NCBI GenBank assembly: GCA_024225395.1
Contig: JAAEMR010000141.1
Span: forward strand, 1 to 45,744
DNA: 45,744 bases
Direction of reading: 5' to 3'
Origin: Gammaproteobacteria bacterium
GTDB taxonomy: Bacteria > Pseudomonadota > Gammaproteobacteria > GCA-001735895
Shown: piece after piece, positions 1 to 4,527 of the stretch
How positions within the stretch are numbered: the stretch's first letter is position 1
How the letters are laid out: every line of letters starts with the position of its first letter
Position numbers and translations under genes: made by a program
The notes under the pieces: model-generated
What the model was told of the DNA's origin: nothing
Databases searched by the model: none
The model's input: the letters and a program-made list of their open reading frames with translations, nothing else

Positions 1-327
1 GGGCATTATATATTTAATGGTTTGATTAATAATAAAGTGGTCACTTTCCTGGTTGATACCGGAGCAACAACCACCAGCATTCCTGCCAGTCTTGCTCCAG
101 CACTAGGCCTGCAGAAAGGTCACAGATTTTCCGTGCAGACCGCTAATGGCAACAGTTTTGCTTATTCAACAAAGGTTAACAGTTTGCAAATGGGTGATAT
201 TAAATTCACAAATGTGAGCGCAAGTCTTAATCCCGGATTACACAGCAATGAAATTCTTCTCGGCATGAATATCCTGAAACATGTTGAGCTTATTCAACTC
301 GGCGACACACTTATTTTAAGAAAATAA
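1..327 (+). CDS. Retropepsin-like clan AA aspartic protease (3' part)
   Basis: The gene enters from the left edge. Codons 1-21 read GHYIFNG in frame and run without a stop into the FLVDTGAT segment, so the TTG at 22 is probably internal and the true start lies outside. The DTG triad followed by A-T is the catalytic aspartate motif of single-domain retropepsin-like proteases; the hydrophobic ILLGMNIL near the C-terminus is the usual second core element of this fold. Bacterial members are often secreted or membrane anchored and probably work as homodimers. Substrate unknown. The gene lies about 110 bp upstream of bufA in the same direction, but no functional link is evident. Confidence 0.8.
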   Translation, partial: GHYIFNGLINNKVVTFLVDTGATTTSIPASLAPALGLQKGHRFSVQTANGNSFAYSTKVNSLQMGDIKFTNVSASLNPGLHSNEILLGMNILKHVELIQLGDTLILRK

Positions 328-388
328 AATCACTTTTTTTTGATATCTGTTGAACTTCCATATATGGTCGCCCTCTAACTCGGTGTAT

Positions 389-402
389 ATAGTAAACACT
401 AT
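389..402. promoter_or_regulatory. Small inverted repeat upstream of bufA
   Basis: ATAGT-AAAC-ACTAT is a perfect 5+4+5 inverted repeat 38 bases before the bufA start. It overlaps a TATAGT that could serve as a -10 element. It could be an operator or chance; no regulator can be assigned from sequence. Confidence 0.25.
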
Positions 403-439
403 GACGATTATTTAATTAAAAATAACGAGGATATACTTT

Positions 440-694
440 ATGAATACTGCAAAGAAAATTTCTGGTGTAGCTATAGCTGCCGCTGCTGCAACTATGTTCG
501 CTCTTGCTCCCATGAGCGCTACTGCCGGTGGACATAAAGCGGGAAAATGTACCGGCATCAATAGCTGCAAAGGAACATCTGCCTGTGCAACGGCTACTAC
601 TTCCTGTGCTGGTCAAAACTCCTGCAAAGGACAGGGCTGGATTAAAGCTACCAAAGCTGAATGTGAAGACAAAGGCGGTAAATTCGAGAGTTAA
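440..694 (+). CDS. bufA2: BufA2-family bufferin precursor (periplasmic metallophore peptide)
   Basis: The 84-residue precursor has a Sec signal peptide (residues 1-29: KK, an alanine-rich hydrophobic core, then ATA before G30). The mature part carries six cysteines at 37, 43, 49, 56, 62 and 75, arranged as INSCKG, SACAT, TSCAG, NSCKGQGW and AECEDKGG. This Cys spacing is the BufA2 pattern. Bufferins are ribosomally made, post-translationally modified peptides in which some cysteines are converted to thiooxazole heterocycles that bind copper, made by a DUF692 enzyme (BufB) with a partner (BufC); both follow at 926-2565. The start is supported by an ACGAGG-like ribosome site at 425-430. An intrinsic terminator follows the stop codon. 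The cysteines actually modified cannot be read from sequence. Confidence 0.88.
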   Translation: MNTAKKISGVAIAAAAATMFALAPMSATAGGHKAGKCTGINSCKGTSACATATTSCAGQNSCKGQGWIKATKAECEDKGGKFES

Positions 695-702
695 TCATCA
701 GA

Positions 703-846
703 TTAATTTTTAAAGAAAATGCACTGATTTATCAGTGCTTTTTTTTGGCACATGGATTTGCTTATGCTGCGAGGCCATGGATATATGGCAACCAGCAGTA
801 TTATGGCAAAAACGGCAACGAACAGTATTTTTACAGATAGCAACAA
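703..846 (-). CDS. Possible 47-residue single-pass membrane peptide
   Basis: A short minus-strand reading frame with a TTG start lies between bufA and bufB. Its product would have a strongly hydrophobic segment (VKILFVAVFAIILLVAIY) followed by WPRSISKS, which looks like a membrane helix with a basic flank. It has no ribosome site and reads through the bufA terminator stem, so it may be a chance frame or a relic. Reported only because it fills otherwise unexplained spacer. Confidence 0.12.
   Translation of the reverse strand: MLLSVKILFVAVFAIILLVAIYPWPRSISKSMCQKKALINQCIFFKN
721..746 (+). terminator. Intrinsic terminator after bufA
   Basis: GCACTGAT (721-728) pairs perfectly with ATCAGTGC (731-738) and is followed directly by eight T (739-746). 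This is a textbook rho-independent terminator 26 bases past the bufA stop. It should separate a short bufA transcript from the downstream maturation genes, or allow only limited read-through. Confidence 0.88.
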
Positions 847-868
847 TAATTAATTAGAAATACCTGCC

Positions 869-898
869 TTAACTAAAATCCACCTCTCAAGCTATAAT
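869..898 (+). promoter_or_regulatory. Candidate sigma70 promoter for bufBC
   Basis: TTAACT (869-874), an 18-base spacer and a perfect TATAAT (893-898) lie just before the bufB ATG at 926. Together with the terminator at 721-746 this suggests bufBC is transcribed separately from bufA. Judged by eye; no transcription data. Confidence 0.5.
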
Positions 899-925
899 TC
901 ACTTATAGATATAGTAAAACACCTT

Positions 926-1765
926 ATGCCAGCTCACATAGAAAAACCATTTCTCGGATTCGGCCTCGGGCTCAGATCAGAGCATTATCAGGAAGTGCTA
1001 GAACAACAGCCAAAGGAAATCGACTGGTTTGAAATTATTTCTGAAAACTACATGATCGATGGCGGAAAGCCACTGTATTTTCTGGATAAAATTCGACAGG
1101 ATTACCCGATGGTGATGCACGGCGTTTCCATGTCTATAGGCAGTACCGATCCATTAAATTTTGATTATCTAAAACAGCTTAAAGAATTAATAGACCGCGT
1201 AGAACCCATGTGGTTTTCTGATCACCTGTGCTGGACAGGAGTGGATCACCAGAATATGCATGACCTGCTACCACTGCCTTACACCGAAGCCTCGGTAAAC
1301 CATATTGCCGACAGAATTAGCCAGGTCCAGGATTTTCTCGGTCGTCAAATGCTCATCGAAAATCTATCGAGTTATATCACCTACACGGCCGATGCTATGA
1401 CCGAATGGGATTTTATAACCGCCGTGTCAGAAAAAGCAGACTGTAATATTTTGCTGGACGTTAATAATATTTACGTCAGTAGTTTTAATCATCATTTTGA
1501 TCCGATGGAATATCTTCGCGGAGTCCCGGCTAACAGAGTCTGGCAGCACCATCTTGCAGGCCACCAAAATACGGGCAACCTGATTATCGATACTCACGAT
1601 GAACCCATTATAGACCCGGTGTGGGAACTGTATGAAAAAACAGCACAACAGCTTGGCCCCGTTTCCACCATGATCGAGCGTGATGGCAATATCCCCCCGC
1701 TTTCTGAAGTCATTGATGAATTAAATCAGGCCAGAGAAATTGCCAAACCTTATTACGGAGCATAA
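926..1765 (+). CDS. bufB: BufB, DUF692 multinuclear iron enzyme for bufferin maturation
   Basis: The 279-residue protein is a full-length DUF692 family member (TIM-barrel, MNIO class, relative of MbnB). Typical family segments are visible: GFGLGLRSEHY at the N-terminus, WFEIISENYM, MVMHGVSMSIG, WFSDHLCW, LLPLPYTEA, MLIENLSSYI, LLDVNNIYVSS, HLAGH and IIDTHDEPI. The His, Glu, Asp and Asn residues in these segments form the di/tri-iron site in characterised relatives. It is expected to oxidise cysteines of BufA into heterocycles using oxygen and the mixed-valent iron centre, working with BufC. No clear Shine-Dalgarno precedes the ATG. bufC follows after 5 bases, so the two are almost certainly co-translated. 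Confidence 0.92.
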   Translation: MPAHIEKPFLGFGLGLRSEHYQEVLEQQPKEIDWFEIISENYMIDGGKPLYFLDKIRQDYPMVMHGVSMSIGSTDPLNFDYLKQLKELIDRVEPMWFSDHLCWTGVDHQNMHDLLPLPYTEASVNHIADRISQVQDFLGRQMLIENLSSYITYTADAMTEWDFITAVSEKADCNILLDVNNIYVSSFNHHFDPMEYLRGVPANRVWQHHLAGHQNTGNLIIDTHDEPIIDPVWELYEKTAQQLGPVSTMIERDGNIPPLSEVIDELNQAREIAKPYYGA

Positions 1766-1770
1766 TTTTA

Positions 1771-2565
1771 ATGAATAAAAAAAACTCCGAACTGCAGCAG
1801 TTACAAACTCGTTTCCAGGATTATATAACCGGGAAATCCGAGGACTTTGAGAAAGATATTATCAGTACCGAAGATGCTCTGGCAGAACATCGCCTGGGAG
1901 CATATTACAATGCTTACCGAATTCGTTTAATTAACAGTCTTGCTACCGACTTCGAGTGCCTGCAAAAAGAACTCGGTGAAGAAGCTTTTGAGTTAATGGT
2001 TCTGGATTACCTGAAACTGTACCCGTCAGATAACCCATCGGTACGCTGGGTGGGAATTCACCTCGTAGAATTTCTGCAACACAGTGAACACCCCGATAAA
2101 GCCTTCCTGGTTGAACTGGCAGAATTCGAATGGAACCAGGGACTGTGTTTTGATGCGGGTGATAGCGAGCAAATTTTCAGGCTGGAAGACATGGCTCAGA
2201 TAGCACCTGAAAACTGGCCACAATTAACCTTTCAATTTCATGATTCGGTGCGTTGGCTTGATCTGTATTCCAATGCGGCCCCTTATTGGGTTGCACTGGA
2301 TAGTAACAAACAACTTCCCGGGAAACATTTTGATGAAATTCCAACGCGCTGGTTAATGTGGCGCAAAGGCATGAGTCCGAACTGGCGCTCCCTGGAAGTT
2401 GCCGAAGCCTGGACCATAGAAGCCGCCTTTAATGGTATTAACTTTGCACAGCTGTGTGAAGGCTTATTAGAATGGATTGGTGAAGACCAGGTTGCCATAA
2501 CCGCTGCCGGTTTTCTTAAGCAATGGATACATGATGAATTAATCGTTCAGGTAAAATCGTCCTAG
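1771..2565 (+). CDS. bufC: BufC, DUF2063 partner of BufB
   Basis: The 264-residue protein begins with the HvfC/BufC N-terminal domain (DUF2063, once called putative DNA-binding): LQTRFQDYITG, RLGAYYNAYRIRLINSL, FECLQKELGEEAFELMVLDYL, then SDNPSVRWVG and FEWNQGLCFDA. The role known for the family is as a partner that binds the precursor and activates the DUF692 enzyme, comparable to MbnC; it is not now thought to be a DNA-binding protein. The C-terminal part (WLMWRKGMSPNWRSLEVAEAW onward) matches the usual extension. GGAG at 1757-1760, inside the end of bufB, is the ribosome site, 10 bases before ATG. Confidence 0.88.
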   Translation: MNKKNSELQQLQTRFQDYITGKSEDFEKDIISTEDALAEHRLGAYYNAYRIRLINSLATDFECLQKELGEEAFELMVLDYLKLYPSDNPSVRWVGIHLVEFLQHSEHPDKAFLVELAEFEWNQGLCFDAGDSEQIFRLEDMAQIAPENWPQLTFQFHDSVRWLDLYSNAAPYWVALDSNKQLPGKHFDEIPTRWLMWRKGMSPNWRSLEVAEAWTIEAAFNGINFAQLCEGLLEWIGEDQVAITAAGFLKQWIHDELIVQVKSS

Positions 2566-2571
2566 CATCAT

Positions 2572-2590
2572 AGCTGCACTCGGCGCAGCT
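2572..2590. other. Hairpin between convergent bufC and hupE-like gene
   Basis: AGCTGC and GCAGCT form a 6-bp stem with a 7-base loop in the 24-base gap between two convergent genes. There is no T-run on either strand, so a terminator role is possible but weak. Confidence 0.3.
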
Positions 2591-3711
2591 TACAGATAGC
2601 CGATTCTTTCTATGGTCCAGTACAACCCCATCATGGAAATACCCAAGGAACCGGGAATAATCACCAGCTTCCTGTACAGTTCATGATTTTTCCTGATCCA
2701 GAACACCGCTAAAAACGCCAGTAAGATCACACTCAACTGGCCCAGTTCAACACCCACATTAAAACTCAGCAAAGCAGTGACAAATTGCGATTCTGGTAGA
2801 CCCAGCTCTGTTAGAACTCCGGCGAATCCCATGCCATGCAACAAGCCAAATAAAAATACAATTACAATTCGCCACGGTTTTAACTCACGCGTCAGCAGGT
2901 TTTCTATGCCCACATAGGCAATAGATAATGCTATGAGAGGTTCAACAATCAATGATGAAACACTGATCAGACCGTACATGCTTAATGCCAGGGTAATCGT
3001 ATGGGCCAGAGTAAAAGCGGTTACCTGCCACAATAAAGGGCGGAATTTTCTACTCAGTAAAAAAAGCCCTAAAACAAACAGAATATGATCCAGACCCTTG
3101 GGTAGAATATGAATAAATCCCAGGCCGTTATAATCTACTGCAACATCAATCCAGCTACGTGGAATTACGTTTTCATGTAATAGGTATTGCGGGCTCTGCT
3201 GCCCTTTAACCAGCCAGTAGGTCGTTTTTTCAGCCTGACCTTCAGCGATAAAATTAACAACTGCATCACCATATTTTGGATCAAACGACCAAACAGCGGT
3301 TGAAGAACCCTGAGGTATTTGTGCAGAATAATGAATAACTGATTTTCTCGATAAGCGGGTATCGCCAACCTCCGGAATGTTTATATCCATTAACTGCCAG
3401 TCAACCTGAACACCTGAAAGCTCCAGCTTAAGCCCCTTACTAAATTTATCGGCATAGGCTTTAAATTTACCCGATAAATCATCAGCTGATAATTCACGCA
3501 ACTCCCGGTACACTTCAGCCTGAGGAGCATCATCGGTATTTTCATGTTCTGCACCAATTCCCGACAGCACAGCTTCTGCATTGGTCTCCAGCTGAACTTT
3601 TACCACTGCGTGTTGATCAAAGATAATAGTTGCAATAGCCGGACGCATTTGATGAGCCTGTGCCGGTGCTAAATTCAGAAAAAACAACAGTAAAAATAAG
3701 CTATGAAACAT
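2590..3711 (-). CDS. HupE/UreJ-family membrane protein
   Basis: A signal peptide (MFHSLFLLLFFLNLAPAQA) precedes an extracytoplasmic region of about 180 residues that starts HQMRPA. The C-terminal half is a HupE/UreJ_2 domain with six to seven membrane helices, including FIHILPKGLDHILFVLGLFLLSRK, FTLAHTITLAL and LLHGMGFAGVL. The histidines in LDHILF, LAHTITLA and LHGMGF are typical of the family, whose characterised members take up nickel or cobalt. The metal moved here is unknown. I prefer the ATG at 3711 because it gives a normal signal peptide; a GTG at 3732 in frame is the alternative. Either choice overlaps the start of the divergent gene at 3703. Proximity to the bufferin genes suggests metal handling; that link is inference. 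Confidence 0.75.
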   Translation of the reverse strand: MFHSLFLLLFFLNLAPAQAHQMRPAIATIIFDQHAVVKVQLETNAEAVLSGIGAEHENTDDAPQAEVYRELRELSADDLSGKFKAYADKFSKGLKLELSGVQVDWQLMDINIPEVGDTRLSRKSVIHYSAQIPQGSSTAVWSFDPKYGDAVVNFIAEGQAEKTTYWLVKGQQSPQYLLHENVIPRSWIDVAVDYNGLGFIHILPKGLDHILFVLGLFLLSRKFRPLLWQVTAFTLAHTITLALSMYGLISVSSLIVEPLIALSIAYVGIENLLTRELKPWRIVIVFLFGLLHGMGFAGVLTELGLPESQFVTALLSFNVGVELGQLSVILLAFLAVFWIRKNHELYRKLVIIPGSLGISMMGLYWTIERIGYL

Positions 3712-4527
3712 TTTTCTAATCAACAAAAGCACCTTTTATTTAAAATTTTAATAGTTTGTCTGACATTAATTTCTAGCAGAGGTTTCAGTCATGATTTCTG
3801 GTTGGAGGCGCACCCATTTTATACCAAAGCTAAAAAACCTGTTGATATTTCTGTGCATGTTGGTAATGAATTTATCGGTGACAGTCTGCCGAACATACTC
3901 AACTGGTATACAGATTTTAGCCTTTATCAAAAAAACTCAAAAACTGATATCAAGGGTGAACTGGGACGAGATCCCGCTGGATATTTTACACCCGATCAAA
4001 CGGGTACATATGCCATCGGCTATCAGAGTGATTTCAGCTATGTTGAAATTGATCCTGAGACCTTTATAAAATATTTAACCGATGAAGGTCTCGATAATGC
4101 CATTCAATTTCGCCAGAAAAATAAGCTGACGCAAACAATCGGAAAAGAAAACTATATTCGTCACGCCAAAGCGCTGGTGCAATCCGGTGATCAGTTTGGT
4201 ATCAATAACTCGAAAATTAACATGGGTTATGAGCTGGAAATAATTCCCTTAAGTAATCCATATAAAAAGAATTTAAACGACACGCTTAAAGTTAAAATTC
4301 TGTACCAGAACAAGCCTGTTAGTAACATCCTGTTAACTGCATACAGCAAAATCAGGCCCAGGCAGACTCAATCAATTCGAAGTAATAACAAAGGTGAGGC
4401 CAGCATTACCTTAGATCAAACCGGACCCTGGCTACTTAAGGCCGTTAAAATACAAAAGATTAATGATGGTAAAGCTAACTGGCAAAGCCACTGGGCCAGT
4501 CTAACATTCGAAGTTATTAATCCGTGA
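3703..4527 (+). CDS. DUF4198-family periplasmic protein
   Basis: The 274-residue protein has an N-terminal signal (basic KHFSNQQKHLLFK, hydrophobic ILIVCLTLISS) followed by SHDFWLEAHPF, the diagnostic beginning of DUF4198. The domain continues through YFTPDQTGTYAIGYQS and ends with a beta-rich segment (KIRPRQTQSIRSNNKGEAS, then LDQTGPWLLKAVKI) like a carboxypeptidase-regulatory or Ig-type fold. DUF4198 proteins are often encoded next to nickel or cobalt uptake genes and are thought to be periplasmic metal-binding or carrier components, which fits the HupE-like neighbour. No ATG other than 3703 precedes the signal sequence, so the overlap with the divergent gene appears real. Exact function unknown. 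Confidence 0.72.
   Translation: MKHFSNQQKHLLFKILIVCLTLISSRGFSHDFWLEAHPFYTKAKKPVDISVHVGNEFIGDSLPNILNWYTDFSLYQKNSKTDIKGELGRDPAGYFTPDQTGTYAIGYQSDFSYVEIDPETFIKYLTDEGLDNAIQFRQKNKLTQTIGKENYIRHAKALVQSGDQFGINNSKINMGYELEIIPLSNPYKKNLNDTLKVKILYQNKPVSNILLTAYSKIRPRQTQSIRSNNKGEASITLDQTGPWLLKAVKIQKINDGKANWQSHWASLTFEVINP

Follow-up and report, generated by a model that had tools for sequence, protein, structure and literature searches.

Leaky terminators of the nisin type are known among other RiPP systems. Our literature search, which covered few subscription papers, returned no paper on these nisin-type terminators, and no report of a terminator or of an RpoE-type promoter in a bufferin cluster. In the accessible part of the published report, the Caulobacter Buf1-type operons CC2907-CC2906-CC2905 and CC3254-CC3257 are each described as one sigma-F-controlled unit comprising the whole operon (PMC3511200). 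The accessible part of a bufferin survey places sigma-factor genes in Buf1 clusters and none in Buf2 clusters (PMC12452194). For the GIG operon of Legionella pneumophila (lpg2108-lpg2105), the available portion of the report describes RT-PCR products over every junction, so that co-transcription exists in a relative, and an upstream promoter responsive to copper and gold; the word 'terminator' does not occur in that portion (PMC5413113). In other peptide systems, the sections available report that lasso peptide clusters often contain a terminator-like inverted repeat between gene A, which encodes the precursor, and the biosynthetic genes that follow it, where swapping that region for another ribosome-binding site or promoter increased yields (PMC5974421), and that a terminator lies between the precursor gene epeX and the enzyme gene epeE of Bacillus subtilis epeXEPAB (epipeptide EPE), the sRNA FsrA binding next to it (PMC12871923).

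The window analysed here, a 45,744-nucleotide stretch of gammaproteobacterial DNA, contains three buf genes on the forward strand. The bufA gene (440-694, +) encodes an 84-residue BufA2-type bufferin precursor (NCBIfam NF050166, 82.1 bits against a cut-off of 60), for which Pfam returned no family and whose N-terminus, by eye alone, is signal-peptide-like. The bufB gene (926-1765, +) encodes an MNIO-family bufferin maturase of 279 residues (NF050167, 388.9 bits, cut-off 310; PF05114, 380.6 bits), and bufC (1771-2565, +), located 5 bp 3' of bufB, encodes a DUF2063 partner protein of 264 residues (PF09836, 59.7 bits, cut-off 27.2) that scored 30.9 bits with the HvfC model NF050145, under the cut-off of 142. 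The BufA2 precursor, MNIO BufB and DUF2063 BufC classify the cluster as a predicted Buf2 bufferin biosynthetic cluster. A HupE/UreJ-like gene (2590-3732), convergent to bufC, ends 24 bases beyond the bufC end, and a scan of positions 1-4000 found no terminator-like site between the two genes (2565-2590).

Relatives of BufB were gathered, together with BufA2 matches over the curated cut-off across a class sample of 321 genomes, from which junctions were taken only for BufA2 places above that cut-off. This yielded 100 distinct bufA-bufB junctions, of which 32 from the family and 57 from outside the family were scored, and 11 with gaps of < 35 bp were left unscored. The analysis of the bufA promoter region omitted two loci that were too short (L010 and L059), and the sister-genus alignment comprised the 19 junctions whose gaps measure 94-104 bp, five other junctions of that genus (L010, L012, L015, L028 and L148) lying outside it.

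Sequence, folding and conservation in the family all point to an intrinsic terminator directly after bufA (721-746, +). Its arms, GCACTGA (721-727) and TCAGTGC (732-738), form a 7-bp stem closed by the 4-nt loop UUUA, and this G+C-containing stem, which is kept by compensatory changes in the family, passes directly into eight T (739-746). The preliminary description had placed an 8-bp stem with eight T here; the position and the eight T agree with our analysis, and the stem has been corrected to 7 pairs because closing one more A-U pair would shrink the loop to 2 nt. In the RNAfold structure, A-U and G-U pairs also form between an upstream A-tract and the U-tract, giving -15.7 kcal/mol (z -3.8, with 0 of 200 shuffles as good). 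The terminator had also been called strong, and its T-tract is indeed excellent and its d score positive (23.8), but the core energy is only -8.8 kcal/mol, which lies near the weak end of the range of -6.3 to -20.1 kcal/mol among the 30 family terminators listed, so that the word was generous.

The scan of positions 1-4000 gave four terminator-like sites where 3.3 +/- 2.0 were expected from shuffles, and 15 promoter-like sites where 9.1 +/- 2.6 were expected. Since neither class clearly exceeds the shuffles, one sequence alone is insufficient, and it is conservation in relatives that raises both the terminator and the bufB promoter discussed below above chance. A terminator-like hairpin was found right after bufA in 29 of the 32 family junctions (0.5 expected from shuffles), and a hairpin of -10 kcal/mol or lower in 25 of the 32 (1.3 expected); in the three junctions scored negative (L022, L024 and L043) a hairpin is still visible by eye. 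Within the family stem, four of ten pairs have changed on both sides, a number reached by 2 of 500 shuffles, and 97.7% of cells are paired; four pairs are invariant and thus uninformative for covariation. Among control stretches, the terminator-like call was made for 0 of 89 inside bufB and 2 of 88 before bufA; of 38 further codirectional gaps, defined crudely from ORFs of at least 100 aa, four received it.

Among the 57 junctions scored from outside the family, 22 are terminator-like (1.1 expected), and the hairpin reaches -10 kcal/mol or lower in 43 (9.2 expected). These stems have entirely different sequences and many have no T-tract; the general feature is therefore a hairpin at the precursor-enzyme boundary, of which termination is the clearest version. 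Strong T-less hairpins lie directly 3' of bufA in, for example, L072, L076 and L102, and may be processing or protection elements rather than terminators.

Folding of positions 600-760 also revealed an A+T-only hairpin, TTAATC-ATCA-GATTAA, with T at 707-711, which overlaps the bufA stop (691-711, +). The identical hairpin precedes the main terminator in the sister genome (L003). At another locus (L149, G012:C190), bufA is still followed by a terminator of the family type and by TACAAT, although bufB is represented only by a short matching fragment and the usual bufA start is immediately followed by a stop codon, which suggests a decaying cluster.

The part of the bufA-bufB gap between the terminator and the bufB promoter (747-862), which had been overlooked as such, is a dispersed intergenic repeat. 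It is best matched over its first 56 bases and recurs in the same genome at 20 places with E <= 1e-3, or 30 with E <= 1. The gap is 231 bp in the window and 104 bp in the 96%-identical sister genome, and the repeat is an insertion accounting for the extra length of ~127 bp. Related repeat-like sequence was also found 3' of the bufA terminator in three other genus genomes (L004, L008 and L130). In one of these (L130, G004:C4, 1-760), the bufA contig continues beyond the terminator with a transposase gene (DDE_Tnp_1_4), and bufB is found on a separate contig (L036, 1-225) with 224 bases ahead of it. The two contigs of this genome suggest that a mobile element has probably been inserted between the two genes, and since the genes lie on different contigs the two parts are apparently separable. 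The tolerance of the gap to insertions is consistent with separate transcription of bufBC. A hidden or lost second precursor in 747-925 was rejected, because no ORF of at least 50 aa lies wholly inside this mostly repeat-derived region on either strand, and so was a known RNA, the sole Rfam match up to E = 1 being STnc40 with 19.9 bits, far under the gathering score of 45.

A sigma-70-type promoter for bufBC is likely at 869-898 (+), where TTAACT (869-874) and TATAAT (893-898) are separated by 18 bases, as the preliminary description had already noted. The two hexamers match 10 of 12 consensus bases. In the scan of 1-4000 this site ties with one other for the top score of 10/12. The stretch before bufB is A+T-rich, and 64% of its shuffles contain a -10 of at least 5/6. 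In the family, a -10-like hexamer of at least 5/6 lies ahead of bufB in 22 of 32 junctions, compared with 7.1 expected; the other 10 have none, and in some junctions the best -10 is only 5-7 bases from the ATG. In the aligned sister-genus junctions, TACA[AC]T occurs in all 19, about ten bases past the T-tract, with diverged sequence further 3'; the -10 is conserved in this genus and a convincing -35 was not found before bufB. TATAAT is located 27 bases from the bufB ATG in both the window and the sister genome, despite the repeat insertion.

A different class of promoter, which had been missed, is predicted for bufA. Positions 351-378 (+) contain TGAACTT (351-357), a 16-base spacer and TCTAA (374-378), a sigma-E (RpoE)-type site that is conserved in the family and from which the bufA RNA would be expected to start near 385. 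It is the sole match to the sigma-E-type pattern in the whole window, where 0.04 were expected. Family members share TGAACTT-N15-16-CTCTAA upstream of bufA, followed by a conserved CGTA block; 27 of 31 carry the strict motif and all 31 fit a looser pattern of GAAC and then either CTCTAA or TTCTAA, the -35 being reduced to GAAC in L024 and L027. The pattern was found in none of 31 family bufA-bufB gaps, and the bufA motif in none of 67 loci outside the family.

The same form of motif lies before rpoH in all 30 family loci examined, which are the 30 loci returned from a set of 41 genomes; it is strict in 14 of them, and 15 bases always separate GAAC(NN) from [CT]TCTAA. In E. coli K-12, GAACTT-N15-GTCTGA is present upstream of rpoH, which we take to be the sigma-E-dependent P3. 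The published sigma-E consensus, in the accessible part of its source, is GGAACTTTT and GTCAAA (PMC1804206); the bufA site is one base off this consensus in each box and agrees with the sites before rpoH. With a -35 like GGAACTT and a -10 like TCAAA or TCTGA at a distance of ~16 bases, the bufA site can be assigned by pattern to the sigma-E (RpoE) promoters.

The genome of the window encodes an RpoE (TIGR02939, 313.3 bits, cut-off 236.15), an RseA (RseA_N, PF03872, 64.9 bits) and, next to it, an RseB-like protein (102 bits, below the cut-off of 368), the three genes adjoining one another. Four matches to the strict motif were found in this genome, located before bufA, 50 bases before rpoH, before a Tsp-type protease gene, and at one place with no obvious nearby gene; since the reversed control gave two, these counts do not establish a GAACTT-type regulon. 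The E. coli rpoE gene is autoregulated, and an autoregulatory copy of the motif before rpoE characterises the known regulons as a whole rather than any individual promoter. In none of eight genus genomes was the sigma-E-type pattern found before rpoE, so that the assignment of the bufA site to RpoE among the ECF factors is tentative. A different conserved block, GAATCTTTTG-TATATT, lies upstream of rpoE in the genus genomes (L187-L193).

A small palindrome, ATAGT-AAAC-ACTAT (389-402, +), lies where the bufA RNA would be expected to begin, and may act either as an operator or as a stem-loop in the RNA. Genus members show the compensatory variants ATGGT/ACCAT and ATGGC/GCCAT. Its statistics are weak: the fold z is -0.83 for the window sequence, and the sister genus has 89.1% of cells paired, with three cells changed on both sides.

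The translation signals of the genes also differ. The bufA ribosome-binding site, GAGGA (427-431, +), is predicted to form a duplex of -5.9 kcal/mol with the 16S tail, compared with +0.4 for bufB, upstream of which a ribosome-binding site is nearly absent, and -5.8 for bufC. The mean pairing in the family is -5.84 kcal/mol for bufA and -1.80 kcal/mol for bufB. In 29 of 32 cases the bufA site is stronger by at least 2 kcal/mol, and in none is the bufB site stronger by that margin, a comparison in which two bufA start codons are probably misplaced (L009 visibly so).

We assign a probability of about 0.68 to the reading that the cluster consists of two transcription units, a monocistronic bufA under a sigma-E-type promoter and a bufBC unit under a housekeeping-type promoter. 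The elements, their conservation and the family assignments are observed; that the promoters are used and transcripts stop at the terminator, which sigma factor acts, how the two protein levels compare and how copper is connected are inferred from sequence. A division of bufA from bufBC had been proposed in the preliminary description and is well supported, at the level of sequence, by conservation among the relatives. As its consequence, much more precursor than enzyme, or independent control of each, had been suggested. Independent control through differing promoters appears to be the better-supported half, because bufA has a conserved sigma-E-type promoter that is missing from the gap and bufB has a -10-only or sigma-70-type site; an excess of precursor over enzyme would fit the terminator and the ribosome-binding sites.

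On this two-unit reading, transcription of bufA would begin at the sigma-E (RpoE)-type promoter (351-378), the RNA might carry a stem-loop at its 5' end, and most transcripts would end at 721-746, giving a short, well-translated mRNA of ~360 nt. The bufB and bufC genes would be co-transcribed from the weak sigma-70-type promoter at 869-898 and translated from a poor bufB ribosome-binding site, with terminator read-through adding to the supply of bufBC. Envelope stress, probably including copper stress, would then raise the precursor alone, and the enzymes would stay at a low, steady, catalytic level. Such a split would be economical because the precursor is needed stoichiometrically to bind metal and the enzymes only catalytically.

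A related but unlikely explanation is that the hairpin acts as an attenuator within a single operon, in which transcription from the bufA promoter mostly halts at 746, read-through feeds all of bufBC, and no second promoter operates; precursor excess would then arise without independent control. This would suit the junctions outside the family, where hairpins are more frequent than terminator-like sites (43 compared with 22 of 57), as well as the precursor-enzyme hairpins reported for many lasso peptide clusters in the available sections of that account (PMC5974421) and the co-transcription detected by RT-PCR in the accessible part of the Legionella report (PMC5413113). However, an attenuator alone does not account for the conserved -10 hexamer before bufB, whose position was kept after the insertion of ~127 bp, and it is difficult to reconcile with the likely mobile-element separation of bufA and bufB in G004.

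The hairpin might instead serve mainly RNA processing or 3'-end protection, so that cleavage of a single bufABC primary transcript would release a bufA fragment protected by hairpins at its 3' (and 5') end. The T-less hairpins at the same position outside the family and the possible 5' stem-loop in the genus are compatible with this, but we consider it improbable: the 5' element is itself weakly supported, and in the window, as in 29 of 32 family junctions, the stem runs into a T-tract, so that termination would be expected rather than processing alone. That terminator and promoter are functionless chance matches is the view to which the region-wide scan, with neither class of site clearly above shuffles, would lend itself. 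Against it stand the 29 of 32 junctions where 0.5 were expected and the compensatory changes, by which chance is refuted for the terminator; for the bufB promoter it retains some plausibility, and as an explanation of the two elements together it is very improbable indeed.

The two-unit reading can be extended to a broader proposal to which we give roughly even odds: in this gammaproteobacterial family, the precursor of a periplasmic copper-buffering RiPP would have joined the envelope-stress regulon of RpoE as an mRNA of its own, capped by a hairpin, with its enzymes expressed constitutively. How much of the stress-induced precursor is matured would depend on the enzyme pool, and BufA2 clusters in general would follow the rule of a boundary hairpin, achieved differently in different lineages. 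If true, this would provide Buf2 bufferins with a testable regulatory logic, in which a general envelope-stress sigma factor induces the precursor alone and precursor and enzymes answer different signals. The arrangement illustrates how an enzyme needed catalytically and a metal sponge needed in stoichiometric amounts could be held at different levels. Junction-spanning RT-PCR would be insufficient to settle the operon structure here, and for heterologous expression, replacement of the precursor-enzyme gap is suggested, following lasso peptide practice.

In comparison with known systems, as far as the accessible parts of the published accounts describe them, the cluster resembles the Caulobacter Buf1 operons in its order of precursor, MNIO enzyme and DUF2063 protein and in having an ECF-type sigma at the cluster front (PMC3511200), and differs from them in its BufA2 precursor, its RpoE-type promoter, and the terminator and second promoter ahead of the enzymes. 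The bufferin-type gene order is shared with the Legionella GIG operon, a likeness drawn via the published description in its available portion (PMC5413113). Lasso peptide clusters involve another peptide class and other enzymes, and the available part of their description includes no sigma-E-type promoter (PMC5974421). The bufA-bufB gap is like that between epeX and epeE in having a terminator, and an sRNA of the FsrA type is a feature of B. subtilis, according to the available part of that report. The GAACTT-N15-GTCTGA upstream of E. coli rpoH is similar to the GAACTT-N15-CTCTAA of bufA, the likeness being one of promoter class, as the E. coli site drives a sigma factor gene. In conclusion, a hairpin at the precursor-enzyme boundary is already known in other peptide systems, and the combination in Buf2 clusters appears to be new.
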